Of a DNA stretch of 42,355 nucleotides, positions 3,116 through 18,635 are shown piece after piece. Position numbers and translations under genes: made by a program. The notes under the pieces were generated by a model that saw only the letters and a list, made by a program, of their open reading frames with translations, was not told the origin of the DNA and ran no database searches. Source of the DNA: a virus; the IMG/VR virus record IMGVR_UViG_3300032431_000018, positions 1 through 42,355 of that record. One strand, written 5' to 3'. Numbering within the stretch: position 1 is the first letter of the stretch; each line of letters starts with the position of its first letter.

Positions 3116-4876
3116 ATGTCAATAACGGATTTACTGGTATTTTGGAAAGCAAACGAACCGCAGGTTAAATCCAAGTGGGTAGATTGCTTTGACCAAATGG
3201 CGGTGCATTCAAGAAAGTATTCACCAAAGAAACTAATTGAGATTACCCGCCCCAGTGAACCGAAAGACATTTTAAATTATAGACTAGCTACGGATGAACC
3301 GATAACACACGCCTCGATAAACGAGGCTATAATTCGTGCTAGTAAAATAATTCACAACTCGAACTATTCAGTAGATTTATCTGAAGAGTTGAGTAATTAT
3401 ATTAAAGATAATTTTATTGAAGAGTTCGATTCAAAAGGTACTCCCGATTTAGTATCTTTTGAAGATGTACTGTTTAATAGATGCTTTAGGTACTCGTGCG
3501 AAACGGGTAACGGTGTAATAGCGTGGATTCCAATGAACGCCTTTGATGTTAATGCAGCACCTATTAATCAAGCTGCAACCGAACAAGTTAGGCTAAGTTA
3601 TTCAATTATAGAGCCTAAGAACATTATCGCTTTACAAAGCAATTACTTCATATTTAGATTAAAGAATAAATATAAAGTTGTAAGAGATGAAATGGTAAGT
3701 TATGAAGACCAGTACATGTATATTGATAAAAACAGGTATGTTTTATTGCTGCCTTTTTTTGATAAAACTTCAATATCATATACTGAAAGTCCTTGGTACA
3801 ATATCGCATCTGTAAACGAAGAAGGTATCTATGTTGAAGAAGATGCAGCCGACACTTTGCCCATTGTTATTACGAAAGGTTATGCAACTTATGACATACA
3901 TCAAAACCTATATTACGAAAGCTACTTCAGTGGATTTGTGCCATTGGCAAACGAAGCCAAGCTGGCTTATTCAGATGACAAAGCGGTTAGGTTAATTAAC
4001 AACTTTCCAGTACGTGAAGAAAAAGAAGAGGAATGTGATGCGTGTCATGGCACGGGCAAAATAAATGATGTAACGTGTGGTTCTTGTGGAGGTACAGGCT
4101 ATAAAAGCGCAAAGTCGCCATATTCTACATATAAAAAGAGAGAACCCGCTTTAGGTCAAGATTCTGAATGGGCAAAAGTACCTGCGCTAACATACATAGA
4201 GCCTCCAGTTCAAGCTCTAAAACATTCATTTGAAGTGTGGCAATTGTTTTTGGACAAAGCCGAGCAAAAGGTAAATATTAAATTTATAGACGATGCACAA
4301 AGTGGCGTTGCGAAAGACATAGATAGGGAAGGGCTTATTGATTTAAGACTTTCAATATCTAATAACTTTTTTGATAACATCATGTACAAATCTTTTTGGA
4401 TTTGTGAAATTTTACTAAAGCCAAATTCGGCTGACAGACAAGAGCCTATAATAAAGAAGCCCACAGCAGCCGATTTAAACTATAAATCTACTGCTCAATT
4501 AATAACAGACTTACAACAATATTCAAACGGGAGTGTGCCTCATTTTGTAGGTTCAATGAAAATTTTAGAAACGATAGGGAAATTATTTCCAGACGATTTA
4601 CAAAAGCAAAAGTTCACTAAAGTATTAATGTTTGTAGACCCTTTATTTGGCTATTCGACACAAGAAACTAGTATGATTGTGCAGAATAGCACAACTAAAA
4701 AAGCTGTAATTACACACTTGTATGCTGAACATGAATTGATAAAATTAAGTATGGAAGATGAAGACCTTTTCCAAAAAGATATTAAAACTATTGCGGAATT
4801 GTTGATTAAAAAGTTAGACGTTTATTTAACACCCGATTCATTAGAAATTACTAACTTATTCCCAATTGGCTCGTGA
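3116..4876 (+). CDS. Portal protein with embedded DnaJ-like zinc finger
   Basis: 586 residues, the usual portal length, directly upstream of and overlapping a MuF-like head morphogenesis gene, as in many siphoviruses. Portals form the dodecameric ring at the capsid vertex through which DNA is packaged and ejected. The sequence is mixed alpha/beta with a helical C-terminal third. Residues 307-328 hold two CxxCxGxG units (C307/C310 and C321/C324), the DnaJ-type zinc-binding repeat, inserted just before the region that would form the stem. I infer portal identity mainly from size, context and composition. Confidence 0.72.
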   Translation: MSITDLLVFWKANEPQVKSKWVDCFDQMAVHSRKYSPKKLIEITRPSEPKDILNYRLATDEPITHASINEAIIRASKIIHNSNYSVDLSEELSNYIKDNFIEEFDSKGTPDLVSFEDVLFNRCFRYSCETGNGVIAWIPMNAFDVNAAPINQAATEQVRLSYSIIEPKNIIALQSNYFIFRLKNKYKVVRDEMVSYEDQYMYIDKNRYVLLLPFFDKTSISYTESPWYNIASVNEEGIYVEEDAADTLPIVITKGYATYDIHQNLYYESYFSGFVPLANEAKLAYSDDKAVRLINNFPVREEKEEECDACHGTGKINDVTCGSCGGTGYKSAKSPYSTYKKREPALGQDSEWAKVPALTYIEPPVQALKHSFEVWQLFLDKAEQKVNIKFIDDAQSGVAKDIDREGLIDLRLSISNNFFDNIMYKSFWICEILLKPNSADRQEPIIKKPTAADLNYKSTAQLITDLQQYSNGSVPHFVGSMKILETIGKLFPDDLQKQKFTKVLMFVDPLFGYSTQETSMIVQNSTTKKAVITHLYAEHELIKLSMEDEDLFQKDIKTIAELLIKKLDVYLTPDSLEITNLFPIGS

Positions 4877-5711
4877 AACTTATTTTAGCGATAGAGAAAA
4901 AATATTTGGGAAGGCGGAAACAATTCTTACAGCCGACTTTTCAAAGGTAAATAATAATATATTAAAAGAAATAAAAGGAATATTAAAGGAACTCGATATT
5001 TCTGCGGGCAACATTGCCGTTAATTCAGCGCAAAATAGGAAAATATTAAACACTGCGTTTGAGAGAGTAAAGGCTTCAATACTTGAAACCGATTACAAAA
5101 CTAATGTAACAGGTTATTTAAGAAGCTTTCAGCAAATAAGTGATAATAACATTCTATTTCACTCAACAGTAAATCAACTTTCAAATGTTGATAACACGAT
5201 AACACCGCTTCAATCCATTGCGGTAAAAAACACTTTAAATTCGTTATTAGGCAATGGCATGGATGCTGCATTTACAGATGCTTTAACTCGCAATTTACAA
5301 GGTTACATTACGCAAGGTGCAAACATTACGCAAGTTGAAAATAGCCTTAGTCTATTCATAAAAGGCGATAGTAAAAACTTAGGTAAATTAGAACGTTATG
5401 TAAAGCAAATTGCAGGTGATGCTATACGCCAATACGATGGGCAATTACAGGGCGCAATACAGGCTGAATACAAGCTAAATGCCGTTAGTTATGAGGGTAG
5501 TTTAATAAAAGATAGTAGACCGCAATGCGTGCGCTGGGTGAAGCAAAAAAAAGGTGTTTTAATGGTTAAAGAGTTGGTAAATGAAATCGAATGGGCATTT
5601 AAAAATGGTAGCGGAATGATTCCAGGGACTTTGCCCGCTACATTTTATCAAAATAGAGGCGGTTTTGCTTGCAGACATGCAGCCACAGCAATAAATATAG
5701 TAGAAAAATGA
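4866..5711 (+). CDS. MuF-like phage head morphogenesis / minor capsid protein
   Basis: 281 residues, helical for most of its length. The C-terminal region has the spaced signature of the MuF / SPP1 gp7 family: DSRPQCVRWV, then about 40 residues later NRGGFACRHAATAI (Cys and Cys-x-His). Family members sit inside the head near the portal and are often injected or help assembly. The start is a TTG inside the portal gene, giving an 11-bp overlap; no ATG lies near in this frame, so translational coupling to the portal is likely. Confidence 0.75.
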   Translation: MARETYFSDREKIFGKAETILTADFSKVNNNILKEIKGILKELDISAGNIAVNSAQNRKILNTAFERVKASILETDYKTNVTGYLRSFQQISDNNILFHSTVNQLSNVDNTITPLQSIAVKNTLNSLLGNGMDAAFTDALTRNLQGYITQGANITQVENSLSLFIKGDSKNLGKLERYVKQIAGDAIRQYDGQLQGAIQAEYKLNAVSYEGSLIKDSRPQCVRWVKQKKGVLMVKELVNEIEWAFKNGSGMIPGTLPATFYQNRGGFACRHAATAINIVEK

Positions 5712-6058
5712 TAGAGTATTTGATTATAAGCGTAATAATTACGGGCGGTGCAGCCTACCTCATTTATTCATCATTTGAATATGGAATGTTAAATGATTGG
5801 TGGATTATATTTTGGGCTAAAATCGTTTTGAAATATAAAAAAATTGATTACAATTCAATCTCTGATAAAGATTGCATTGAAATTGCTAAGATGTATAAAG
5901 TTATGAAACCGCTAGGAACTTGCATAAAGTGCTTTGGGTTTTGGTTTTGCTTAGTGCCATCTTTCATTTTCTCATGCAGTGTTACAACTTTTTTGTTTAC
6001 TTTTATAGCATCAACAATACTTTCAATATGGCTTGCTGTAGCTCTATCAAACAATTAG
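5708..6058 (+). CDS. Small membrane protein with CxxC motif
   Basis: 116 residues, starting at an ATG that overlaps the stop of the MuF-like gene (ATGA). One transmembrane segment lies at residues 3-20 and another at about 82-112. Between them is TCIKCFGFWFC, a CxxC followed by aromatic residues. The arrangement recalls small phage membrane proteins of the DUF1360 kind, but I cannot confirm the family. It is the only membrane protein inside the head/tail block. Confidence 0.65.
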   Translation: MIEYLIISVIITGGAAYLIYSSFEYGMLNDWWIIFWAKIVLKYKKIDYNSISDKDCIEIAKMYKVMKPLGTCIKCFGFWFCLVPSFIFSCSVTTFLFTFIASTILSIWLAVALSNN

Positions 6059-6333
6059 GAATGCAATCTTATTGTGACTCTATTACGCTTCCACTGTTCG
6101 CTCCAATAAATGGAACTTACAGAATTATTCGCATAGATAGGCCTGCAAGAATTGTTAACGCCCAACGCGAGGCTAATTTACAGATTTCTTTTAAAAACAT
6201 TTATTCAGAAAGCGAAACTATGACATTTCAAGTGTTAAAGCCCGATGGCGAGCCGCTAACTGATATTGATGGAAATGATTGCTTTCGTATAAAAATAATT
6301 CCTTTTCAAGATGTTACTGAAAACCTTTTTTAA
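6028..6333 (+). CDS. Putative virion protein, beta-rich
   Basis: 101 residues from the ATG at 6028 (MACCSSIKQLGMQSYCDSI), overlapping the membrane protein gene by 31 bp. A second possible start is the ATG at 6061, which would leave a 2-bp gap. I prefer 6028 because a Cys-rich opening followed by CDSI and API.GTY is a form seen at the N-termini of Bacteroidota phage virion proteins. The body is alternating beta strands (YRIIRIDRPARIV, TMTFQVLKPDGEPL). Role unknown; it lies between the head and tail-chaperone genes. Confidence 0.55.
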   Translation: MACCSSIKQLGMQSYCDSITLPLFAPINGTYRIIRIDRPARIVNAQREANLQISFKNIYSESETMTFQVLKPDGEPLTDIDGNDCFRIKIIPFQDVTENLF

Positions 6334-6895
6334 AAGATTTAAGCACGAGTATCAGAACAGCGATTTTGATATGGAATTGATTTTTGACAATGGTAGACAT
6401 AGGTTTTACACTTACAAAAATCCGATTCAGTTACCTTACAAAAGAACTGAAGCTGCATTAACTTACTCACGATATGCCCAAATGTGTATAACAAATGAAC
6501 TTCTAAAATCTTCATTAGATGCTTTGATTATCGCTAATAACAAAGGCGATAAGTCAATGGTAGGACATATAGCAAATAATTTAATTATCAACGAAACACA
6601 CTATGGCGAGCGTAATAGCTTATTAAATTTAGCAACGGTCTATTGTGTTTTAGAGGGCGAGCCGTGCGAAAAATACATACAAAGTTGGCAGGATAAAAAA
6701 CTAAAAATATGGCAGGACGATGAGGACTGCCGTGATTTTTTTTTAATATGGGCATACAAAAAGGTGCCCAGTTTTATGACAGCACAGAAAGATATTATCC
6801 TGAATTATTTAGCAAACCAACAAAGCAAAAATCTAATACTGAAGCATTTGGTGGAGGAGACATTGTTAAGTTCATCAAAGCAAGAAACAAAATAG
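6311..6895 (+). CDS. Tail assembly chaperone, upstream frame (lambda G-like)
   Basis: 194 residues in frame 0. Position immediately upstream of the tape measure gene, and the overlapping -1 frame that follows, match the G/GT tail assembly chaperones of siphoviruses, which coat the tape measure protein during tail assembly. The sequence is helical and acidic toward the end. Frame 0 contains the slippery run at 6736-6745, so ribosomes that shift make a longer G-T fusion of about 232 residues. The 23-bp overlap with the preceding gene suggests coupled translation. Sequence similarity to known G proteins is not visible to me; the call rests on context and the frameshift signal. Confidence 0.7.
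   Translation: MLLKTFFKRFKHEYQNSDFDMELIFDNGRHRFYTYKNPIQLPYKRTEAALTYSRYAQMCITNELLKSSLDALIIANNKGDKSMVGHIANNLIINETHYGERNSLLNLATVYCVLEGEPCEKYIQSWQDKKLKIWQDDEDCRDFFLIWAYKKVPSFMTAQKDIILNYLANQQSKNLILKHLVEETLLSSSKQETK
6736..6769 (+). promoter_or_regulatory. -1 ribosomal frameshift signal in the tail chaperone gene
   Basis: A run of nine T is followed by A. Read in frame 0 it gives the canonical heptamer T TTT TTA at 6739-6745. Four bases later a stem-loop forms: GGGCAT (6750-6755) pairs with GTGCCC (6764-6769) around an 8-nt loop. In the -1 frame a TGA lies at 6733-6735, just before the run, and the frame is then open to 7008. Site, spacer, stem and downstream open frame together are what a -1 frameshift requires. 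Confidence 0.85.
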
Positions 6896-7008
6896 CTATG
6901 GAAGTTGCAACCACTATTTCAGTTTCTGTTGATGAATTGGAAGTGATGCCATACTATAAAGTTATTGAGCAATATCAATTTGCCATTTCAAAATTAAAAA
7001 CTAAATGA
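6745..7008 (+). CDS. Tail assembly chaperone, -1 frame extension (lambda T-like)
   Basis: About 87 residues in the -1 frame, reached by slippage at 6739-6745 and ending in a TGA that overlaps the tape measure start (ATGA). An ATG at 6748 exists but need not be used. The segment has a long helical C-terminus (SVDELEVMPYYKVIEQYQF) of the type found in T-domain extensions, which recruit tail tube protein to the tape measure complex. I treat it as the C-terminal half of the fusion rather than as a separate gene. Confidence 0.78.
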   Translation, partial: NMGIQKGAQFYDSTERYYPELFSKPTKQKSNTEAFGGGDIVKFIKARNKIAMEVATTISVSVDELEVMPYYKVIEQYQFAISKLKTK

Positions 7009-9083
7009 CACTTATAAAAGAAGTCATATTAAAGCCTCGTTTTTCCACCGAAGATATAAATTCATCGGCTGCGCAAGTAACGGCAGCTTTGAAACCAGTT
7101 AATGAGTTAGGAAAGGAAATTGAAACTACTTTTAAAGAAGCGTTCGACCCGAAAAATATTGAGACTTCACAGCAAAGAATATTTAGGCTAACAAAGACCA
7201 TGTTAGAGCTGAAAGTGGCGGGTAAACAAAATTCAAAAGAATTTAAAGAAATAGCAGCGGAAATTCGTAAAATAGACGAATCGGATGCTATTGGAAAAGT
7301 TGTTAAAAAGTCAACTTCTTTAAAAGGCGAACTAAGACAGATAAAAGAAGAGTTGGCGGGCATGAGCGATGTTGGAAGCCCTGAATTTGAGAAACTTTCG
7401 ATACGTGCTGCAAAATTAGAAGATTCTATTGCGGACGTTAACGAACGGGTTAAAGTTCTTGCTTCAGACACCTTTAAGTTTGATGCAGCAGTAGGAGGCA
7501 TTAGAGCTTTGACCGCTGGCTTTGCCGTTGCGCAAGGTGCAGCAGCCTTGTTTGGTGATGAAAGCGAAGAAGTTCAGAAAGCATTATTAAAAGTACAGGC
7601 AGCTACAGGTTTGCTAATCGGTGTTCAAGAACTATCTAACATTGCAACAGGTCAAGGTGCATTTAAACTTGCAGTATTGAGTGCAGCGCAAAAGGTTCAG
7701 ACATTTGTTACAACAGGTGCAACGGTGGCTGTTAGAGCCTTTAATGCAGCTTTAATAGCGGGTGGTTTAGGTATAGCAATAGCAGCCATAGGTCTATTGG
7801 TAACGTATTGGAAAGATATTGCGGAATTTACAGGCATAGCAACGGGCAACTTAAAAGAAGCTAAGCAAGCAGAAGAAGATTTAGCGGAATTGGTTAAAAA
7901 AAGAAAAGACGAAATTGAAGATTTTGCAAAAACTTATAAAGGCGTAATAGGTCAAGCAAAGTTAGAATTAGAGTTAGCAGAAAAAAGAAAAGCCAGTGAA
8001 AAAGAAATTCTAAGTTTAAAAGTTTTTTTGAATATTGCAGAACAAGAAAAAGTTAAGTTTGCTATTCAAAACAAACTGCTTTCAGAAGATGCTTTGGCTA
8101 ATGAAAAAATTAAATTAAGACTGCTACAGGCGGAGTTAGAAGGGTTGCGTAAAATAGCAGCCGTTGCGCCACGAACTAGACAGACACCTATAGACATTGA
8201 AGGGATTGGCGAAGATTATCTTAAAACATTAACATTAGCAAATAAAAATATTGGCAAAGATTTAGTTGATACCCTAAAAAAACTCGATGTACCACCTCTT
8301 GTAATTCCTATTGAAATACAAGAAGCAATTGAAAACATGCGATTCATACAGCAAGAATTGCCTGGAATGATAGTTGATGGCTTGGGTAATGTTGCGGACA
8401 CAATATTTCAGGTAACATTGAACCGCCAACAGCAAGAATTTGATTCAGAAGTTGCCAATTTAGAGCGTATTAAAGATGCACGAATTGCAAACGAAAATAT
8501 AACATCAGATGAAAAACAGATTATAGAAGCGCAATACCAAGCTAATGTATCTAAACTTAGAGAAAAACAGTTTAAAAGAGAACAACAAGCAGCCGTTTCC
8601 CAAGCACTATTAAACGGTGCTTTAGCAGTTACAAATCTTGCTGTAAAAACAATCCCTGGCTCCCCCGCTTTCTTTGCGGGCTTAGCATTAATTAAAATCA
8701 ACACTATAGCGCAAATTGCTGCAATTAAATCAGTTCCACCACCTGCATTTAAAGATGGTGTTATTGATTTTAAAGGCAAAGGCACAGGAACATCTGATAG
8801 TAATCTTGTTAGGATTTCGAGGGGTGAAAGCGTTATGACTGCCAAAGAAACATCGGAGAATTACGATGCTTTGATGGCGATTAGGAGAGGTCAATTCAAT
8901 AAATTCTTAAATCAAAAAGGCTTTGAAACGCAAAGGCTATCTAAGCCTGTAGGACAAAAAGAGAAAAGAAGAACCAATATAAAAAGTAGGGGAAGGGAAA
9001 AGATTATCATTGAAAATTACGGGCAAATAGCTAATAGTTTAGCATCGAAGCTCAATAAAGCTGCATACACGAAGCGCGCATGA
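7005..9083 (+). CDS. Tail tape measure protein
   Basis: 692 residues. Long helical and coiled-coil stretches cover residues 1-160 and about 285-400. A hydrophobic glycine/alanine-rich region (about 155-270) includes a probable transmembrane segment (LIAGGLGIAIAAIGLLV). The C-terminal part has a second hydrophobic patch and the segment FKDGVIDFKGKGTGTSDS followed by RGESVMTA, typical of Bacteroidota tape measure proteins. Tape measures set tail length; at about 0.15 nm per residue this predicts a tail near 100 nm. It overlaps the chaperone and tail-tip genes by ATGA junctions. Confidence 0.9.
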   Translation: MTLIKEVILKPRFSTEDINSSAAQVTAALKPVNELGKEIETTFKEAFDPKNIETSQQRIFRLTKTMLELKVAGKQNSKEFKEIAAEIRKIDESDAIGKVVKKSTSLKGELRQIKEELAGMSDVGSPEFEKLSIRAAKLEDSIADVNERVKVLASDTFKFDAAVGGIRALTAGFAVAQGAAALFGDESEEVQKALLKVQAATGLLIGVQELSNIATGQGAFKLAVLSAAQKVQTFVTTGATVAVRAFNAALIAGGLGIAIAAIGLLVTYWKDIAEFTGIATGNLKEAKQAEEDLAELVKKRKDEIEDFAKTYKGVIGQAKLELELAEKRKASEKEILSLKVFLNIAEQEKVKFAIQNKLLSEDALANEKIKLRLLQAELEGLRKIAAVAPRTRQTPIDIEGIGEDYLKTLTLANKNIGKDLVDTLKKLDVPPLVIPIEIQEAIENMRFIQQELPGMIVDGLGNVADTIFQVTLNRQQQEFDSEVANLERIKDARIANENITSDEKQIIEAQYQANVSKLREKQFKREQQAAVSQALLNGALAVTNLAVKTIPGSPAFFAGLALIKINTIAQIAAIKSVPPPAFKDGVIDFKGKGTGTSDSNLVRISRGESVMTAKETSENYDALMAIRRGQFNKFLNQKGFETQRLSKPVGQKEKRRTNIKSRGREKIIIENYGQIANSLASKLNKAAYTKRA

Positions 9084-11239
9084 TAGAATTTGAAATATCA
9101 TACAATAATATTACAACCAAGATTAAATCACCAATAGGGTGGCAGTCATTGGCATATCAGCTTGTTAGAGACGAAGTATATAACGGCATAGATTTAAACG
9201 TTACAGCAGAGCTAACATTCATTGACGATGGGTTTGACATTTTAAACCAATTTATTTATGGTAGAAATTTCGATGCAGTTTTAATACTTCATCTGTGGTA
9301 TAATGATGTCTTAATTAAAAAGTTTAAAATCAATTTATTCGATTACAAACTTCAATCTAGACAAATAGAAGTTTCGGTTACTCAAATTTCGTTTTCCCAA
9401 GCATTAAAAAATAGAGAAAACTTAACAGTTGACATTTATAAACCTAACAATATTGATGGTGATTTACTAACACCTGTATCATTATTAGGGTTTCCTTTTT
9501 TATTTTCAGAAATACCAATATTTTTAAATTCTAAACTTGAAAATTTAACTAATTTTAATTTTTTTAAAGAAGAACCAAACTTTGATTTAGCATTTACAGG
9601 CATTGTAAATTATAGGGGCTTACCGCAACTTGACATTGTTTTGGGTGAAATTCAAAACACCTATAGCGGGGGTTCATCAACTCAATTTGTTTCTTCAGCA
9701 AACGCAACTCCTATAGAACCATATTACATAGATACTTTAAACCAACAAAATTCAAACATAAAAAACGAATATTTAGTTGAATATGATTTGAGTGGCAATA
9801 TAGGAGACTTTTGTTCGACTGCCCGTTCAAGGCAGATGGCTTGGGAAATAAATCTTATTTATGGGCTTAGAGATAATCTTACTGCAATTAATTTAGGCTC
9901 GGGGTCTGCTAGTGGTGGTAGCAACTTTCTTACAGCCCCGTATTCAATTGTTGGAAGCCAAACGTTACTTTTAATTCCTGCCGATGCAGTAATTTTTATA
10001 TCTATACAAGTACAATCTCTTTTTACAACGGGTGCGCCTGGACCGAATCATGCTTTTCAGCAAGGCACGTTTTCAAGTAATTGGACTATCCAAGTAAATC
10101 AAAAAAGCGTATTAGTAAACACTGAACATAAAACAACGCCTATATATGAGTTCGTTAATAGATGCTTGGAAAGCATTACAGGTAGAAATGATGTATTAAG
10201 GAGTGATTACTATGGCAGAACAAATAGCGAACCTACGCCTTATCCAACAAACGGTTTAGGCAGCTTTAAAGTGCTAACTAATGGCTTTAATATTCGTGGT
10301 TTTGATGAACAAATAGACCAAGAAAGCCCCGACTATAAACCACCATTGATAAAATGGAGCGATTTGTTTGACAGCCTAAATGCCATTGATAATTTAGGCG
10401 TTGATGTTGGAAGCGATTATGTAAGACTTGAACCTAAATCATATTTTTATAATAATAATCTTATAAAAAACTTAGGCGAAATAAAAGATGTATTATTTTC
10501 GTTAAAGAGGTCTTTATATTTTAATGAAGTTAAAATTGGCTATGAAGATTGGGAAGATTTCACCGAAGAAGGTCTTAGCGAATTTGCGAGTAATCGAACA
10601 TTTACTAATCGGATAAAAAATAATGGTCAACCCCTAAATTTAAAAAGCAAAATTGTTGCTTCATCATTTGCAATTGAACTTTCAAGACGGCAAAATAAGA
10701 TTTTTCAACCACGCTCTAAAAATAAATGGGATTCTAGTATTTTCGTTATTGAAACATCTAAAGGTTTAAATGCTTTTGGGCAACCAATTCTTAGTCCACC
10801 AAATACAAAAGAACACTTTTTTACACCAATAGGCACACGAATAACAAATGTTCAAAATGCTGCGAGCGGTGATTTTTTATACAACATCGAACTTTCACCA
10901 ACTAGGAATTTATTAAGACATCAAAATACTTTACAAGGTGATATGTTTTTCGTTTCAGGCGAGGGTAACGTGAGAATGAAGTCGACTGTTGAAAACCAAT
11001 ACGGAGGGCTTGAAGTTGATGAAAAGGGTAATTATCCACAAACCAATACTTTATACTATCCAATAATAGCTTCATTTGAATATCCATGTTCGCTCGATGA
11101 ATTTATGCAATGGGAAGCGAATAAATACGGATACTTTGAGTTTGTATCAGACGATAATATTTACAGAGCCTACATTGATAGTTTAGAGTTAGACCAAGAG
11201 AAAAATTTATGTAATTTTGAACTGATTCTAAAATCATGA
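9080..11239 (+). CDS. Tail tip / distal tail protein
   Basis: 719 residues, directly after the tape measure gene and overlapping it by 4 bp, the place of the distal tail and tail-tip genes. The first 120 residues (beta-rich, ending QIEVSVTQISFSQAL) look like a hub domain, the middle is low in cysteine and beta-rich, and the C-terminus carries an EYPCSLDEFMQWEANKYG segment. I recognise no enzymatic motif. Baseplate or tail-tip identity is inferred from position and size. Confidence 0.7.
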   Translation: MIEFEISYNNITTKIKSPIGWQSLAYQLVRDEVYNGIDLNVTAELTFIDDGFDILNQFIYGRNFDAVLILHLWYNDVLIKKFKINLFDYKLQSRQIEVSVTQISFSQALKNRENLTVDIYKPNNIDGDLLTPVSLLGFPFLFSEIPIFLNSKLENLTNFNFFKEEPNFDLAFTGIVNYRGLPQLDIVLGEIQNTYSGGSSTQFVSSANATPIEPYYIDTLNQQNSNIKNEYLVEYDLSGNIGDFCSTARSRQMAWEINLIYGLRDNLTAINLGSGSASGGSNFLTAPYSIVGSQTLLLIPADAVIFISIQVQSLFTTGAPGPNHAFQQGTFSSNWTIQVNQKSVLVNTEHKTTPIYEFVNRCLESITGRNDVLRSDYYGRTNSEPTPYPTNGLGSFKVLTNGFNIRGFDEQIDQESPDYKPPLIKWSDLFDSLNAIDNLGVDVGSDYVRLEPKSYFYNNNLIKNLGEIKDVLFSLKRSLYFNEVKIGYEDWEDFTEEGLSEFASNRTFTNRIKNNGQPLNLKSKIVASSFAIELSRRQNKIFQPRSKNKWDSSIFVIETSKGLNAFGQPILSPPNTKEHFFTPIGTRITNVQNAASGDFLYNIELSPTRNLLRHQNTLQGDMFFVSGEGNVRMKSTVENQYGGLEVDEKGNYPQTNTLYYPIIASFEYPCSLDEFMQWEANKYGYFEFVSDDNIYRAYIDSLELDQEKNLCNFELILKS

Positions 11240-12066
11240 TTAAACCAATAAAAGGACAAAGTGTATCGTTATTAACATCCACCGATGTTGAGTTTAACGA
11301 AAAGAACGAAGCATGTACCTTCGATAATGAAACTTATTGTCAAAATATATATAAAAATCAGTTTACACAGTTTCAGGTGCAATTAACGCCAACAACTGGC
11401 ATAGATTTAACAACCAATGGAAACTTTGCTAATAATATAAATTCATGGACTTTAGTTGGTGATATAATCGGTGTACATTCTCTTTTGTATGGTGGTAGCG
11501 CAAGTTTGATTGCAGACACTTCAGGCAGTCTAAGGCAAACAATAAACGGTCTAACTATAGGCTCACATTATTACGTTGAAACCACTGTTAGAGATTTTAA
11601 CAGGGTCAACCCATCTTTAATATGCAATGCAAGCCTATTTGTTGATGCTATTGGTCTTGTTGGCGATGGCATTCTATTTTATAATAGCACTGCTAATATC
11701 AGCATTCGAGACATGAAGATTAAAGTGTGGTTTACAGCAACCGCCACAACTCATAATATTAGCGTGTTGTTAACTAACTCTTCTGTTGTAGTTGAATATG
11801 TAAAGATGTACGAGCTTAGTAGACCACAGGCACAACTTACTGAATGCGATGGCGGGGCTGTATTAGATGCTAGTGTTCTATTATATAAAGATAAAGCAAT
11901 TATAACAGTTAATTGGGATAACCCTGCGGTTATAGTTGATAATTGCTATAGGATTTGCGTAACTCAAATTGGCAATGAAAGCCCTAATTTGCTTATAGAT
12001 TTTAATGCTTTTGGTGATAATTTCGGCTTTATTATTTTCGATAATAACCGTGTTCCGATGGGTTAA
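11236..12066 (+). CDS. Tail protein with carbohydrate-binding-like domain
   Basis: 276 residues, overlapping the tail-tip gene by 4 bp. Residues about 55-195 look like a galactose-binding-type or CBM jelly roll: NGNFANNINSWTLVG, then GGSASLIADTSGSLRQTI, NGLTIGSHYYVETTVRD and a closing VVVEYVKMYEL strand. The N-terminal 50 and C-terminal 80 residues are beta-rich with several cysteines. A role in binding host surface glycans at the tail tip is the natural inference. It is the last gene of the tail block. Confidence 0.65.
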   Translation: MIKPIKGQSVSLLTSTDVEFNEKNEACTFDNETYCQNIYKNQFTQFQVQLTPTTGIDLTTNGNFANNINSWTLVGDIIGVHSLLYGGSASLIADTSGSLRQTINGLTIGSHYYVETTVRDFNRVNPSLICNASLFVDAIGLVGDGILFYNSTANISIRDMKIKVWFTATATTHNISVLLTNSSVVVEYVKMYELSRPQAQLTECDGGAVLDASVLLYKDKAIITVNWDNPAVIVDNCYRICVTQIGNESPNLLIDFNAFGDNFGFIIFDNNRVPMG

Positions 12067-12067
12067 T

Positions 12068-12107
12068 TTAATTTTTATACCTTTATATAATATTAACGTA
12101 AATTAGT
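12068..12107 (+). promoter_or_regulatory. Candidate late promoter region before the glycosyltransferase gene
   Basis: This 41-bp AT-rich gap contains TACCTTTATA (12078-12087), a decamer that recurs exactly in the terminase leader (39971-39980) at a similar distance from the start codon. Surrounding bases are also alike (TTAATTTA upstream, TTA downstream). It separates the tail block from the glycosyltransferase/capsid block, a sensible place for a new transcript. The motif does not match the early TAnnTTTG promoters. Confidence 0.4.
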
Positions 12108-12812
12108 ATGAACATATACATTCTGATTCCTGTTTACAAAAGGGCTGAAATCTTTGAAAAGGTTTTGATTCGACTTAATGAAATACGGGAACTTTCAAAG
12201 CTGAAGATTGGTATTGTTGTGGCAGGCGAAAAAGAAGATGCGTGTTACGAAGTATTTAATTCTCATAAAAAAGAACATGATGTGTTTATAACGCACAAAA
12301 ACTTACCAGTATCGAATAAATTCAACGGATTGTTTAAATATTTAGAAGATAAGGAATTCGACTATGCAATGATAGTCGGCAGTGATGACTTGATTTCTAA
12401 TAAAGCATGGAAACTTTTAGAGAAAGAAATAGTAAAATATGAAACCCATTTTATAGGGTTTAAAGATTTGAATTTTTACGATACTAAAACAAAAAGAGTA
12501 GGCTACTTTATTTGTAAAAAGTCTTCATACAATCAAACCATTGGCTGCTTTAGGACATTACATTATAACCTTATTAAAGCATTGAATTTTGAGCCATACT
12601 ACAATGGCAAAGATAGTGGTATTGATTTCAGTATGGAGGAAAAAATTAAATATATAAATGGCGTTACACAAAAAGAAATTACAGTCGGCAACACAGGCGA
12701 GATTGTAGACCTTAAAAGCAATGTGAACATAAATAGTTATGAATATCTAAAAAAAATATTTACCTTAGCATCATTGGATTCATTTCCAAACGAAATAAAA
12801 CAAATTTTATAA
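12108..12812 (+). CDS. GT-A-type glycosyltransferase (family 2-like)
   Basis: 234 residues. The N-terminus MNIYILIPVYKRAEIFEKVL is the first beta strand and nucleotide-binding helix of a family-2-like glycosyltransferase. LPVSNKFNGLFKY is followed by DYAMIVGSDDLIS, where the SDD at residues 92-94 sits in the place of the metal-binding DxD motif. The enzyme would transfer a sugar from a nucleotide-sugar donor. It lies between tail and capsid genes on the late strand, so modification of a virion protein is plausible; modification of a host surface glycan is the alternative. Target and donor are not deducible. Confidence 0.75.
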   Translation: MNIYILIPVYKRAEIFEKVLIRLNEIRELSKLKIGIVVAGEKEDACYEVFNSHKKEHDVFITHKNLPVSNKFNGLFKYLEDKEFDYAMIVGSDDLISNKAWKLLEKEIVKYETHFIGFKDLNFYDTKTKRVGYFICKKSSYNQTIGCFRTLHYNLIKALNFEPYYNGKDSGIDFSMEEKIKYINGVTQKEITVGNTGEIVDLKSNVNINSYEYLKKIFTLASLDSFPNEIKQIL

Positions 12813-12813
12813 T

Positions 12814-13128
12814 ATGGAAGTTATAGTAGTATTTGAAGGCAAAGAGATAACCAACCTAAGTAAATTAGGTGCGGAAGCTTTCGTAAAGCAAAACAAGGGT
12901 GCGCATATAAAAGGCGTTGAAACCGTTGCACCAGTAGTTAAAAAAAAAGAAACTGCTGCGGGTGATGTAGATGAGCCTTACAAAAGGGAACGAACTCAAA
13001 AAGAAAAGCCTGTTGCTGAACTTGCAGAGCCTGTAGAACCTATAGAGCCTGTAGAAGTGCAAAAAAAACAAGAAGCTGTTGAGGACGAAATAGATACCCA
13101 TTACGGCAGGAAAAGAAGTAAAAAGTAA
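12814..13128 (+). CDS. Small charged protein upstream of scaffold, paralogue of the 2287 gene
   Basis: 104 residues. The N-terminal 40 residues include AFVKQNKGAHIKGVETVAPV, which matches the pattern of the 60-residue protein at 2287. The rest is low-complexity, rich in Glu, Pro and Lys (AELAEPVEPIEPVEVQ), and is probably disordered. It lies 2 bp after the glycosyltransferase gene and 17 bp before the scaffold gene, so it should be co-expressed with capsid assembly genes. Function unknown. Confidence 0.6.
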   Translation: MEVIVVFEGKEITNLSKLGAEAFVKQNKGAHIKGVETVAPVVKKKETAAGDVDEPYKRERTQKEKPVAELAEPVEPIEPVEVQKKQEAVEDEIDTHYGRKRSKK

Positions 13129-13144
13129 CACATAAAAACACAAT

Positions 13145-13948
13145 ATGAAAGAGAAAGAAAAAGAAATATTAGACAAATTATTTGGTGCGGAATTTCAAGA
13201 AAGATTAGATGCTACCGAAGACCTCGATGTCCTTATAGAAGAGCTTAAAAGCATTGAAAGGCAAAGGCATTATGCAATATTTGAAAATGATGTTCCCGAT
13301 TCTGTAAAAAATAAAATCATTCAGTCTTTCGAGGGCAAATTCAACGGAACGTTAGACACTAACCTTAAAAAACAAGGCTTGTCTCCTGATGAAATTAAAG
13401 GCAAATCAATTGCTGAAAAGCTAGCTTTGTTAGCGGAAAAATATGATGAAAAAATCAAAACGGCATCGACTAAAGGTGTTGCGGAAATTCAAGAAGAATT
13501 AATGAACTTAAATAAAAAAATTGATGAGTACGATAACGTCCTTATTCCATCAATTAAAGAAAATGCTTATAAAGAATCTGTTAATTTCAAAATAAACAAC
13601 ATATTAACGGCAGAATACGGCAATATTGATTCTGCTATTTTGTCAATTGGCAAAGAAGGGCGTGAGACCGCATTCAAAATGATTGACTTTTATCTTAGAG
13701 ACAATTATGATGTGAGACTTGAAAACAATAAAGTTGAATTTTTCCAAAAAGGCACTGATACAAAAGTGATGAATCAAAGTAAAAGCGAAATATTACCAAT
13801 TAATAAAGTTATATTAGCAGCTATTCAGACAATTGGTTTGTTACGTCAATCAAACGGCAGTGGTACACCAATTACACCAATAAATACTGATACAAACAAT
13901 AAAATAACTGGGCAAAGTAACGAAAAGTTACTAAGCCGTTTAGCATAA
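13145..13948 (+). CDS. Capsid scaffold protein (probable)
   Basis: 267 residues, highly charged and mainly helical, with coiled-coil stretches at about 1-45 and 95-140 (EIQEELMNLNKKIDEYDNVL). It stands directly before the major capsid gene, which is the standard place for a scaffold. The C-terminal 30 residues are Ser/Thr/Asn-rich and end in KLLSRLA, a short basic helix of the type that docks to capsid subunits. No protease motif is visible, so it would be removed by exit or by another protease. Confidence 0.65.
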   Translation: MKEKEKEILDKLFGAEFQERLDATEDLDVLIEELKSIERQRHYAIFENDVPDSVKNKIIQSFEGKFNGTLDTNLKKQGLSPDEIKGKSIAEKLALLAEKYDEKIKTASTKGVAEIQEELMNLNKKIDEYDNVLIPSIKENAYKESVNFKINNILTAEYGNIDSAILSIGKEGRETAFKMIDFYLRDNYDVRLENNKVEFFQKGTDTKVMNQSKSEILPINKVILAAIQTIGLLRQSNGSGTPITPINTDTNNKITGQSNEKLLSRLA

Positions 13949-13961
13949 ATTTTTTTACTTC

Positions 13962-14011
13962 GGTGCGGCAACACCTTAAAATGCCCTTCAGGTCTTGCTA
14001 TTACCTTTTAA
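13962..14011 (+). ncRNA. Structured 5' leader of the capsid gene: two hairpins with complementary loops
   Basis: Hairpin 1 is GGTG (13962-13965) with CACC (13972-13975), loop CGGCAA. Hairpin 2 is AGGT (13990-13993) with ACCT (14003-14006), extended by TTAAA (13976-13980) with TTTAA (14007-14011) across an asymmetric bulge. GCAA in loop 1 (13968-13971) is complementary to TTGC in loop 2 (13995-13998), allowing a kissing-loop contact; a flanking G-T pair extends it on this strand. AGGT could also pair with ACCT at 13973-13976, so two alternative folds exist. Confidence 0.5.
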
Positions 14012-14012
14012 G

Positions 14013-14059
14013 TTGGCAAAATTTATTATGTAATTTTCTAACTTAAAAAATCAAAAATT
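14013..14059 (+). promoter_or_regulatory. Candidate late promoter and A-rich leader of the capsid gene
   Basis: TTGGCA (14013-14018) and TAACTTA (14039-14045) flank an AATTTATTA-containing spacer. The same two words in the same order occur before the terminase genes (39956 and 39979), with a spacer three bases shorter there. The leader up to the ATG at 14060 is A-rich and has no Shine-Dalgarno. This would give the capsid gene its own transcript start, but the different spacing lowers confidence. Confidence 0.35.
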
Positions 14060-15181
14060 ATGACTTCAGCAAGTTCATGTTGTAACGTTGTTGTTCGTGC
14101 TTTAAGCGAACAAAACACAAATCTGCCCACGTTTAAGATTCAGAACCCAGGAACGTTAGCATCGCTATTGTTACCCGATAATATGTCGGGAATAAGAATG
14201 GTAGAGGTGACAGATAACACTGGTAGAACAATTATAAACCGAGCTAAATACTTTAGAAATCCACGAGACGTAGTAAACGATGGATGGTCTAATTTCTGCA
14301 CGCCTGGGGCTACTTCAGGGCAAGATTTCAAAGACTTTCCTGCCGACATTACAAAATCGGTGAAGTTAACTTTGGACGAAGCAGAATTTAGAGATTTCTG
14401 TGGCATACCATCAGACGGTAATGCTTCCGACATTTCTCTCACCGCCTTTGGCTTAGAACAGACTAGAGCAAAAGCTAACCAATTACTTAAAGCTGTATCA
14501 AATGCCTTTGCAGTGCAATTAGCTGCTAATGTTGGTAAATTTCAAGATGGCTCAATAGTGAAAAATGCTAATCTTTTAAAAACCGATGGTTCGGTAAATG
14601 CCAACGGAGAAGTGCTAGTAAAACGCTCATTTGAAAACATTGAGCTACCGACAGATGATATTATCGCAGTTGGTTCAGGTAATTTATCCGAATACTTTTA
14701 CAAAAGACAATATGCTTGTTGTTCAGAAGCAGGGATTGATGTGTCTAAGGTAACATCTCCTTTCAGGTATTTTAGAGATACTGCTATTGATAGCGTGATG
14801 GCAGGTGATAACAACTTTATAACCTTCGCTCCAGGGTCTGCTGTGCCGTTTTTCAGAAGATGGTTTATTGGTCCGTATGAAAAGAACGGAAGCGATGGGA
14901 CTAACATTAGAAAAATAGTAATTGATTTACCGTTTTTATTTAATGGAATTTCCGCTACAATTCCTGTAAATTTCACAGTGAAATATATAGAATGCGGAAG
15001 CACTGACGAAGATGCTTCACCTGAAAACGGTCCCGATTCTAAATGGGTTTTAACTTGGACAATTAACGCTGGTTTGGCAACAATTCCATCGAACATTGAA
15101 ATTTCAGGTTCACCATTTCAAGGTGTTAATAACATATTACATTTCATTGCTACTTGCGGAAATTCTGCATATTGTAGCTAA
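14060..15181 (+). CDS. Major capsid protein (probable)
   Basis: 373 residues, a normal length for an HK97-fold capsid protein, preceded by a scaffold-like gene and followed by connector-like genes. The N-terminal segment has SSCCNVVVRALSEQNTN, and a long amphipathic helix region (about 125-165) is followed by beta-rich C-terminal domains, compatible with an N-arm, spine helix and P/A domains. Its leader is the longest in the late block and carries predicted structure, which fits an abundantly made protein. Sequence alone does not prove the fold. Confidence 0.7.
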   Translation: MTSASSCCNVVVRALSEQNTNLPTFKIQNPGTLASLLLPDNMSGIRMVEVTDNTGRTIINRAKYFRNPRDVVNDGWSNFCTPGATSGQDFKDFPADITKSVKLTLDEAEFRDFCGIPSDGNASDISLTAFGLEQTRAKANQLLKAVSNAFAVQLAANVGKFQDGSIVKNANLLKTDGSVNANGEVLVKRSFENIELPTDDIIAVGSGNLSEYFYKRQYACCSEAGIDVSKVTSPFRYFRDTAIDSVMAGDNNFITFAPGSAVPFFRRWFIGPYEKNGSDGTNIRKIVIDLPFLFNGISATIPVNFTVKYIECGSTDEDASPENGPDSKWVLTWTINAGLATIPSNIEISGSPFQGVNNILHFIATCGNSAYCS

Positions 15182-15197
15182 ACAAAAGGAATAAAAG

Positions 15198-16091
15198 ATG
15201 TGTCTTTCTTCTCTTGTGGGTATAAGGGCTTCGTGCGCAAGCACGGGCTCTTATACTTTTTTTATTGATGACACTCCTGGCATTAACCTAAAGAATGCAG
15301 CAGCGGTGGCTGACACCACTGGTATAGCATTATTAAATAAATCCATTTTAAACGGGGCAAATCAAGTTCAGGCTGAAATCAATGAAGAATTGATTGGACG
15401 ATTCAGGCTTAATGAAAAAATAAAACCTTTTTCATTAGGGAACTTTACAACTGATTATATGTCTGTTTCGAGGTCGGGTTTTAACATTGAAAAGATTTGT
15501 AATTCTTGCAGGCTTGCAAGTTTATTCATTTCAAGTGTTGAGTTTCAAACCAAAGAAGATTTTGCAGGTAAAGTAGTTATAAAAGTTGGTAATGAGATTA
15601 CTGAATATACAGTAACTTCAAATGCTAAAATAAAATCTTATGTTACCATTGATAGATTAGTTAACAGCAACGAATTTGAGATTTATTTAGAACAAGAAGA
15701 TGGGCTGTTGTTCGAATTATTGAAAACGAACGCTTCGTGCTTGTCCGGTGAATATAATCTTACATTAATCGGTAACGGTTTAATAAAACTAAATGGGTAC
15801 TGGCAGTGCGATATTGAAAAAATCTTTTGTGAATTTAAGACGTTATTTGGCAGGGCTGTTTTGTTAAGCAGTGGTGCTTTCTTTTTTGAAGAAGTTGCCA
15901 TGACAGACCGTGTAAATTATTACACCGTATATAAATCACCAGATGATGCTATTGAACAAAAGCACATTTTAAATTCTCGCTATCAAAAGCAAATAAAAGT
16001 AGTAATTACCAAATTATACCCTTTATTAAAAAAGTTTGGAGGCTGCTGTATCGATTGCACGGGTAGCGGATGGGCTTACCAATTACCATGA
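15198..16091 (+). CDS. Putative head-tail connector / neck protein
   Basis: 297 residues, directly after the capsid gene. The start MCLSSLVGIRASC followed by an IDDTPGINLKNAA segment is a form I associate with neck or virion proteins of Bacteroidota phages. Cysteines are unusually frequent (C2, a CNSC pair in the middle, CCIDC near the end). The gene order capsid, this gene, HK97 gp10-like gene, tail-terminator-like domain fits an adaptor or stopper role. It overlaps the next gene by 4 bp. Confidence 0.6.
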   Translation: MCLSSLVGIRASCASTGSYTFFIDDTPGINLKNAAAVADTTGIALLNKSILNGANQVQAEINEELIGRFRLNEKIKPFSLGNFTTDYMSVSRSGFNIEKICNSCRLASLFISSVEFQTKEDFAGKVVIKVGNEITEYTVTSNAKIKSYVTIDRLVNSNEFEIYLEQEDGLLFELLKTNASCLSGEYNLTLIGNGLIKLNGYWQCDIEKIFCEFKTLFGRAVLLSSGAFFFEEVAMTDRVNYYTVYKSPDDAIEQKHILNSRYQKQIKVVITKLYPLLKKFGGCCIDCTGSGWAYQLP

Positions 16092-16555
16092 TTGATTTAA
16101 ACATTGTTGCTAATAATTTCGCTGAAATAACAAAGCGACTTTTCCCGATGTGGAGCGATATTGTGTTAAATAATGCAGGCGCAGAAATTAGGCGTAGAAT
16201 TTTTAATGAAGGTGGGGCAACGGACGGCAAAATAGGCTCTTATAAGTCTAAAACCAAACTCATAAGAGAGCAACTAGGATTACAGACCGCCTATGTAGAT
16301 TTAGAATCAACAGGCACGTTAAGAAGAAGTATTCAAGTAGGCATCAGTGAAAATGACAAAGTGTTAGGTATTGCAGAAATCAATTATGAAAACAACTTTT
16401 CTACCGATAAAAACGCAAACGTTCAAGAAAAGAATTTTAAAAAAGAGATTTTTACAATCAGTGAAAAAGAAATTGAAATCGCTTTTAAAGGAGCAGACGA
16501 ATGGCTCGACAAACAATTAGATATTGAATTAGAAAAAATGTTCAAGAATGCTTGA
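16088..16555 (+). CDS. HK97 gp10-like neck / tail completion protein
   Basis: 155 residues from the ATG at 16088 (MIDLNIVANN), which forms an ATGA junction with the preceding stop; the frame is open 18 bp further upstream (MGLPIT) but the junction start is more economical. The central segment with RRRIFNEGGATDGKIGSYKS and a later STGTLRRSIQVG resembles gp10-family neck proteins, which join head and tail. It overlaps the next gene by 8 bp. Confidence 0.65.
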   Translation: MIDLNIVANNFAEITKRLFPMWSDIVLNNAGAEIRRRIFNEGGATDGKIGSYKSKTKLIREQLGLQTAYVDLESTGTLRRSIQVGISENDKVLGIAEINYENNFSTDKNANVQEKNFKKEIFTISEKEIEIAFKGADEWLDKQLDIELEKMFKNA

Positions 16556-18635
16556 CAAAGTTCAAAGAGAGTTATTAAATTTTGTAGATAGGGGCTACTT
16601 TGGTTTAGGATTCAGCGGTGTTCGTTTGAGTGGTGGGAAGCTAATAGCATATAACGAAGATGGGAGTGTGGGCGATTTTACAGGCATTCAGGACAATAAT
16701 AGTAATTACGTTTATATAAGAGTTTTGACTGACGGTCAAGCAACTAACGAATCAATAAGCACTTGCGGGAGTAAGGTAATGCAAGCGAATTTAAGGCTAG
16801 TTGCGATTGCATGGGATACTAATATTTATCTTTTAAGTGGATTTTTAGCAAGCAGAATCGTAAATTTTAAAAAGTATAGGGTCAAAATAAACAGTACGAA
16901 TTTAGATTACGATAGCATCTGGAATGCTGAAATGATAAATACAGATGCCAAAAGGTACAATGGCATGAGTGTTGTATCGGTTGATATTTCAGTAAAGTAC
17001 AATCTTGATAATAAATTTTACGATAGCCCTTGCGCTTTGGATTTATGCGAAGATGTAAAAGTATGTAAAGACGGTTTTGTAATATTGAAAGATGAAGATG
17101 GTAATATAATTTTAGAGCAGGTTGTGCCAAGCGGTGTAACGGTAGAAAAAACAGTTAATTTACAATGCTTAGATGCAGATGCAGTGCTAAAAGATACGGC
17201 AGGGGGTGTAATTAGCGTTACCGATATACCAAGCGGTGCAACCCAAGACATCATTGCACCCGATGCCGAAGCGATATTAAAGGATACATTAGGAACTGTT
17301 ATTAGTGTTAATAATATTGTTAGTGGCGGAAGTGAAGATATTATAGCACCCGATGCCGAAGCAGTAATAAAAAACACTTTAGGGATTGTTATTAGCACAA
17401 ATAATATTCCTAGTGGAGCAAGCGAAGATATTATTATTCTCGATTCACAAGCAACTTTAAAAGATACGGCAGGTAATATTATAAGTGTTAATAATATTGT
17501 TAGTCAAGCAAGTGTTGATATTATTGCGCCCAATGGAACTATAAATTTAGTAAATACCGTTAACACGCCTATAGCTTCATTAAATGTAAGAAGTGGCGAA
17601 ATAAAGCCATCTGTTATTGCTAATGTGGCTTGGACTGATAGCGATGGCAGCGGTGAATCTACACCTTATGGCAATGCTATTAATTGCACACCTATAACGC
17701 CTTTATTCGTAGATTTTTCTGCTTCAAAAACGAACCCTGTAACCCACGAAAGTATAACTTTTACCGATTTATCAACAGGCGCAACGAATTGGCTATGGAA
17801 TTTTGGCGATGGAACAACATCAACTTTACAAAATCCTGCTAAAATTTATTTTTATGCAGGCGCATACACTGTAACCTTAGCAGCTTCTAACCCAGTGGCA
17901 GGAGGCTTTGAAACTAAGGTTGCATTTATAAATGTAACATTGCAAAGTATTGTTGCAACCAACCTACAGGCTCATTATAGGGCATTAGAAGGCGTTGCCC
18001 CCTCTAACGCAACACTTGTGCTTGGTGATGTGAGCCAATGGAATGACAGCACTGCAAACGCATTTCACGTTACGCAAGGCACTGCTGCTAACAGACCTAT
18101 TTATTCAATTAACGAAATTACAGCACCTAACGGAAGCATCTATGGTGGTGCAATATTCGATGGTATAAACGACTTTTTAGCCAATGCTTCGGCAGGCTTT
18201 GTAAGGTCTCCAAATAGCACAATGTTTTTGTTGTTTAAAATATCAGCCTTGGCAACTTCAGGAACTAGGGGCTTATTTACCACCGTGGGACTTCAGGCTG
18301 TTTTATATAATTTTGGAAATCCACAAATAAGGATGCAAAGCGGGGCAATAATTGATACAGGAATGGCTTATCCATTAAATAATTACTTTGTATTAAGGGT
18401 GCAATTTTCTAACAGCGGTAACGCTCAAATAAGAATGAATAGCCTTATAACTAGGGCTGTGGCTAATACTGGTGCAGTCTCAACAAGCGGCTTCGCTATT
18501 GGAGGCAATAACGCAGGTTCAGCACAATCTTCTATAACATTTATAGAAGGGGCAATTTATAGCGCAAACCCAACTTCAGGCGATGTGACCAATATATTAG
18601 AATATTTTAAATCAAAATTTGGGCTATGGGTATAG
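16548..18635 (+). CDS. Tail-terminator-like domain fused to repeats, a PKD domain and a LamG-like lectin domain
   Basis: 695 residues in four parts. (1) Residues 1-165 (MLDKVQRELLNFVDRGY start, SVVSVDISVKYNL end) look like a compact tail-completion domain in the position of a tail terminator. (2) Residues 209-358 are five 30-residue repeats with the core VLKDTAGGVISV and PSGA; a sixth, divergent copy precedes them at about 176-207. (3) Residues about 386-465 form a PKD-type Ig-like domain (FTDLSTGATNWLWNFGDGTT). (4) Residues about 471-695 resemble a LamG/concanavalin-like lectin domain (YGGAIFDGINDFL). Such domains bind glycans, so a virion-displayed adhesin is likely. Confidence 0.72.
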   Translation: MLDKVQRELLNFVDRGYFGLGFSGVRLSGGKLIAYNEDGSVGDFTGIQDNNSNYVYIRVLTDGQATNESISTCGSKVMQANLRLVAIAWDTNIYLLSGFLASRIVNFKKYRVKINSTNLDYDSIWNAEMINTDAKRYNGMSVVSVDISVKYNLDNKFYDSPCALDLCEDVKVCKDGFVILKDEDGNIILEQVVPSGVTVEKTVNLQCLDADAVLKDTAGGVISVTDIPSGATQDIIAPDAEAILKDTLGTVISVNNIVSGGSEDIIAPDAEAVIKNTLGIVISTNNIPSGASEDIIILDSQATLKDTAGNIISVNNIVSQASVDIIAPNGTINLVNTVNTPIASLNVRSGEIKPSVIANVAWTDSDGSGESTPYGNAINCTPITPLFVDFSASKTNPVTHESITFTDLSTGATNWLWNFGDGTTSTLQNPAKIYFYAGAYTVTLAASNPVAGGFETKVAFINVTLQSIVATNLQAHYRALEGVAPSNATLVLGDVSQWNDSTANAFHVTQGTAANRPIYSINEITAPNGSIYGGAIFDGINDFLANASAGFVRSPNSTMFLLFKISALATSGTRGLFTTVGLQAVLYNFGNPQIRMQSGAIIDTGMAYPLNNYFVLRVQFSNSGNAQIRMNSLITRAVANTGAVSTSGFAIGGNNAGSAQSSITFIEGAIYSANPTSGDVTNILEYFKSKFGLWV
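17172..17621 (+). repeat. Five 90-bp in-frame tandem repeats in the adhesin-like gene
   Basis: Each unit encodes 30 residues of the form D.(D/E)A.(L)K(D/N)T.G.(V/I)IS..(N/D)I.SG...(D)IIAP. Units start at 17172, 17262, 17352, 17442 and 17532; the last is the most divergent. The strict 90-bp period with diverged third positions points to an old expansion kept in frame. Repeats like this usually act as a stalk that extends a binding domain. Confidence 0.8.

Follow-up and report, generated by a model that had tools for sequence, protein, structure and literature searches.

A predicted two-hairpin leader before the capsid gene of an uncultured phage, and a candidate hairpin array in the capsid leaders of its relatives

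Does RNA structure between the scaffold-position gene and the major capsid gene of an uncultured phage matter for the capsid message, and what kind of element would it be? The gap is an intercistronic leader of 111 nt (positions 13949 to 14059, plus strand, as are its two flanking ORFs and the window hairpins described below). It lies in IMG/VR virus record IMGVR_UViG_3300032431_000018, and the window analyzed here is that whole record, positions 1 to 42,355 (42,355 bases). An earlier note had read positions 13962 to 14011 as two hairpins with kissing GCAA and UUGC loops, which would exchange with an alternative pairing and tune capsid synthesis, either by sensing the capsid protein or by stabilizing the message. 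The gene starts of the window are A-rich and lack Shine-Dalgarno sequences, and one relative has a portal with a weak match to Polaribacter phages. Therefore, a Bacteroidota host is likely for this phage.

The ORF that follows the gap (14060 to 15181, 373 aa) had no sequence match in Pfam, PHROG, or PDB. However, it aligned over its length with the capsid-position ORFs of relatives at about 23% identity, with an E value of 5e-9 in BLASTP and a probability of 98.2% (E = 3e-14) in hhalign. AlphaFold2 gave a useless model of the lone sequence (pLDDT 35), and a model from 29 sequences reached a pLDDT of 73.6 and a pTM of 0.77. In VIA-align, the latter model matched the phage capsid 8zdh_A with a Z score of 14.9 and an rmsd of 4.5 over 266 residues, and it matched HK97 1ohg_A with a Z score of 11.8. 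Because of the profile match to the relatives and the match of the model to the HK97 fold, we identify this ORF, from profiles and a predicted structure, as the major capsid protein with an HK97 fold. The earlier note was thus right to place its element just before a capsid gene. On the 5′ side of the gap, an ORF of 267 aa (13145 to 13948) occupies the scaffold position, immediately before the capsid gene, an arrangement shared with the relatives L067, L006, and L098. It had no sequence match of any kind, and none to the scaffold-position ORFs of these three.

The structural module of the window (3116 to 18635) is ordered unlike that of L006, L014, L056, L064, L067, and L077. The gene order in these relatives is tape measure, tail protein, glycosyltransferase-position gene, portal, MuF-position gene, scaffold, and capsid. 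In the window, the portal and the MuF-position gene lie ahead of the tape measure gene, so that the portal and capsid genes are apart. The portal-like protein (3116 to 4876) matches the portals of relatives. At residues about 300 to 330 it has a CxxCxGxG-type region that resembles the zinc-binding domain of DnaJ, with a Pfam match (E = 6e-4) that stays under the curated cutoff. A CTAAC motif is present at 14036 to 14040, and among 23 tested window starts it was found at the capsid gene only. The motif recurs 17 to 30 nt upstream of capsid starts, at 13 of 46 distinct capsid starts compared with 20 of 232 other starts, where the scan of relatives covers the last 45 nt before the capsid genes.

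All the complementary letters that the earlier note had pointed out are present in the sequence. At 13962 to 13975, GGTG and CACC enclose CGGCAA, with GCAA in the loop, and at 13990 to 14006, AGGT-CTTGCTATT-ACCT has TTGC in its loop. AGGT (13990 to 13993) is complementary to ACCT both at 13973 to 13976 and at 14003 to 14006. However, these segments are not predicted to form two separate hairpins. The two hairpins have energies of -4.5 and -1.3 kcal/mol, a sum of -5.8 kcal/mol, whereas a single imperfect nested hairpin (13962 to 14005) reaches -11.7 kcal/mol, an advantage of 5.9 kcal/mol in a comparison that leaves out the pseudoknot energy of the loop-loop contact. The nested hairpin consists of helices 13962-13965/14002-14005, 13967-13971/13995-13999, and 13973-13976/13990-13993, and it pairs GGTG with TACC, GCAA with TTGC, and ACCT with AGGT all at once. 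Base pairs of the two-hairpin fold had probabilities of 0.0. Because the nested fold is so much more stable, the alternative pairings of AGGT are unbalanced, and most of the complementarities are met together rather than in exchange.

The significance of this nested hairpin is weak. The 50-mer from 13962 to 14011 (minimum free energy -11.7 kcal/mol) had a z score of -1.64 against shuffles, 14 of 200 of which were as stable, and the segments 13949 to 14005 and 13962 to 14005 had z scores of -1.3 to -1.4. Nor is the kissing pattern rare by chance. Two 4-bp hairpins with complementary 4-nt loops occurred in 98 of 4231 genome windows of 50 nt, on each strand. Shuffling produced the same pattern in 1.2% of cases for the 50-mer and in 45% for the 111-nt gap. 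Across the viral contigs scanned, a DNA pattern built from the extended hairpin had 0 matches, and Rfam had no match in the window at the curated gathering score.

The whole gap did stand out from its dinucleotide shuffles, with a z score of about -4 (-3.99 and -4.1). The signal comes from 14005 to 14059 (or 14062), which had a z score of about -5.3 and on which the earlier note is silent. This region holds a long AU-rich hairpin (14006 to 14048) that abuts the nested hairpin and ends 11 nt before the capsid ATG. It is within the most stable 1% of 44-nt windows of the genome. The 11 nt that follow (14049 to 14059) are an unpaired A-rich start region with no Shine-Dalgarno sequence, which fits Bacteroidota initiation (PMC6847099). 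In Flavobacterium johnsoniae, positions -3, -6, -12, and -13 favor initiation when they hold A, as does little structure around the ATG (PMC6847099). The capsid start of the window carries A at each of these positions, and -12 and -13 fall within the 3′ arm of the AU-rich hairpin.

We compared the upstream regions of 65 gene starts. The 62 nt before the capsid gene were the most extreme, with a z score of -4.45. The second was gene 2516 (z score of -4.18 for the upstream 62 nt), an unnamed gene of 198 aa just 5′ of the portal gene in the structural region. Its layout is like that of the capsid gene, with a second AU-rich hairpin (2460 to 2503) 12 nt before its ATG, and the fold of 2440 to 2515 had a z score of -3.14. 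The third, gene start 6748 (z score of -3.91), has an upstream region inside another ORF. A small Lys-rich ORF, with a stop near 2469, ends within the 5′ arm of the hairpin at 2460 to 2503. We also considered gene 2516 as a tail tube protein, and the profile comparison was negative (hhalign probability 0.6, E = 0.097).

Relatives of this phage were not easily found. The capsid, terminase, and portal as single-protein queries of viral contigs retrieved no relative, and neither did the capsid and DnaB queries of genome contigs or the first alignment query. The first relative was one contig reached through a DNA pattern that was derived from a conserved tail protein. A two-sequence tape-measure alignment then led to 298 relatives. 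We kept 80 of these, and their whole records yielded six capsids. A search with the capsid alignment gave 68 loci. All the capsid relatives found share only about 23% identity with the window capsid and have leaders unlike that of the window, and the searches may omit records very near the window. The scaffold-capsid gap is 94 to 124 nt in a sister clade (L092 to L142), 139 nt in L143, 141 nt in L153, and 50 nt in L157. It is 6 to 30 nt in L148 to L152, L155, L158, and L159, whose capsid genes are without any leader.

In the sister clade, the gap upstream of the capsid gene (for example, L092:2904-3000, L111:2907-3000, and L130:2879-3000) usually carries two to three small hairpins in tandem, and L143 and L157 carry single units. 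Each unit consists of a 5′ G, a stem of 3 to 6 bp, a loop of 3 to 6 nt, the stem partner, and AAYA, often extended to AAYAC. GNRA loops are common, and some units have UUCG. With the G and AAYA required, we counted 71 units in distinct leaders, compared with 1.3 expected from dinucleotide shuffles, a count from related leaders that are not independent tests. The stems include compensatory variants (GGC/GCC, GCC/GGC, GUC/GAC, GGA/UCC, GCU/AGC, and longer ones). In an alignment of the units, 16 cells changed on both sides, compared with 2.9 after shuffling, and the covariation score was 0.558, compared with 0.081, although this alignment was itself chosen for pairing. In a structure-free alignment of the leaders, 94% of the cells of the last hairpin were paired, compared with 81% after shuffling, and the score was 0.288 compared with 0.095. 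The main change in that hairpin, C-G to A-U, lies within one sequence group and may have arisen only once. The leaders of L128, L130, L131, and L142 share on average 89% identity by column, and among them compensatory changes distinguish both the first stem and the third hairpin.

A covariance model of the unit (R1), run on 22 whole records at E < 0.03, matched capsid leaders only, bar one match. That sole nonleader match in the relatives (G043:20587, E = 0.009) falls within a long ORF that appears to be the tape measure gene. For RNA models as short as this one, E values are approximate. Rfam had no match in the loci of 19 relatives, and no such capsid leader is described in the literature searched; we call the element new with reference to Rfam and that literature. 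From sequence comparison, we propose the hairpin array of this clade as a candidate for a new RNA element in phage capsid leaders. The clade leaders were found via their capsids, so that the occurrence of the unit is given for capsid relatives.

The gap of the window contains no such G-stem-AAYA unit, and R1 had no match there even at E = 10. Its best match in the window (10582 to 10603, E = 0.01) is inside ORF 9080-11239 and was taken as chance. MAFFT aligned the GGCAACAC of the window with the GGCAACAC of the clade. However, we did not count it as a clade unit, because its 5′ partner GCC is missing.

What, then, might the leader of the window do? Our favored reading, held tentatively, is that a passive structured leader protects or insulates the capsid mRNA and makes initiation at the capsid gene independent of scaffold translation. 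Two abutting hairpins, the imperfect GC-richer one and the long AU-rich one, would precede the unpaired A-rich start region. As a passive cis element, they would shield the 5′ side of the capsid message. They would also insulate the start of capsid translation from the point where scaffold translation ends, which would give more capsid than scaffold from one operon. No ligand or switching would be required. The z scores of the whole gap and of the AU-rich hairpin argue for this reading, as do the top two ranks of the capsid gene and gene 2516 and the unpaired start region with A at favorable positions (PMC6847099). No terminator-like site (a GC-rich stem with a T run) was found on either strand in 13000 to 15300. 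The covarying hairpins that the sister clade keeps in this gap make selection for RNA structure plausible there. However, the named part (13962 to 14011) is barely above chance, and the location of -12 and -13 in the 3′ arm of the AU-rich hairpin could impede initiation instead. Where the gap is 6 to 30 nt, related capsid genes manage without a leader. In addition, the profile comparison did not identify gene 2516 as a highly expressed virion protein.

The weak z scores of the nested hairpin are also what a chance fold in a GC-richer patch would give. Under that explanation, which we consider somewhat doubtful, 13962 to 14011 has no function, and the AU-rich hairpin or nothing is selected. The frequency of the kissing pattern by chance and its absence from the other viral contigs scanned agree with it, but the nested hairpin adjoins a highly significant one, and the relatives carry real hairpins in the same gap. 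Alternatively, the capsid, the scaffold, a different phage protein, or an RNA-binding protein of the host could bind the hairpins and repress or protect the capsid message as autogenous control, for which T4 genes 32 and 43 are phage precedents (PMC3014915). In the clade, the stems vary freely and the flanking 5′ G and 3′ AAYA do not, and tandem units would suit recognition by an oligomeric protein. Protein binding fits these conserved flanks better than it fits the leader of the window, which lacks any clade unit, and for the window we regard it as unlikely. We give little credence to a processing or transcript-end site that splits the scaffold and capsid messages. The intercistronic position would suit one, and RNase E cuts the T4 gene 32 mRNA 71 nt before its start (PMC3014915), but 13000 to 15300 holds no terminator-like site. 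Least probable of all is the original proposal of kissing loops that sense the capsid protein. Its complementary letters exist, but the nested fold is far more stable, the pattern is frequent by chance and had no match in the viral contigs scanned, and the units of the relatives are a different motif. The broader idea of the earlier note, a role for RNA structure between the scaffold and capsid genes, gains indirectly from the gap that beats its shuffles and from the covarying hairpins of the relatives; the two-state switch is not supported.

The T7 gene 10 leader also lies 5′ of a major capsid gene and is thought to raise message stability and translation. It has a Shine-Dalgarno site and RNase III processing, whereas the leader of the window has no Shine-Dalgarno site. 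The T4 gene 32 leader combines a pseudoknot with an AU-rich tract, RNase E processing at -71, an unusually stable mRNA, and autogenous control (PMC3014915). Like the leader of the window, it is structured, has an AU-rich part just before the start, and belongs to a polycistronic message. Gene 32 encodes an abundant phage protein, and the leader of the window precedes the major capsid gene. However, the T4 pseudoknot has a known protein ligand, whereas the window has two plain predicted hairpins, with an unrelated sequence and host. The mini-ykkC and psaA motifs are bacterial leaders of repeated small hairpins (PMC2864571). The clade leaders resemble them in their short repeated hairpins and common stable tetraloops (GNRA, some UUCG). 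They differ in that the clade conserves the flank (G ... AAYA) and not the loop, has no Rfam match, and carries its units before phage capsid genes. Such repeated units are absent from the leader of the window.

Capsid genes in this phage group may have repeatedly acquired RNA leaders. More speculatively, and with considerable doubt, capsid RNA leaders may control capsid output in this uncultured, probably Bacteroidota-infecting group. The new tandem hairpins of the clade, recognized by their G and AAYA flanks, and the unrelated two-hairpin leader of the window would then perform the same task, with the latter partly repeated at gene 2516. The tandem array of the clade combines a compact form with a clear consensus, has no Rfam counterpart, and is open to a direct test for a protein ligand. 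In model phages, a few genes have known structured leaders. If selection for RNA structure acts on the capsid leaders of this uncultured group, RNA may be the level at which the scaffold-to-capsid ratio is set, in phages whose likely hosts dispense with Shine-Dalgarno sequences.
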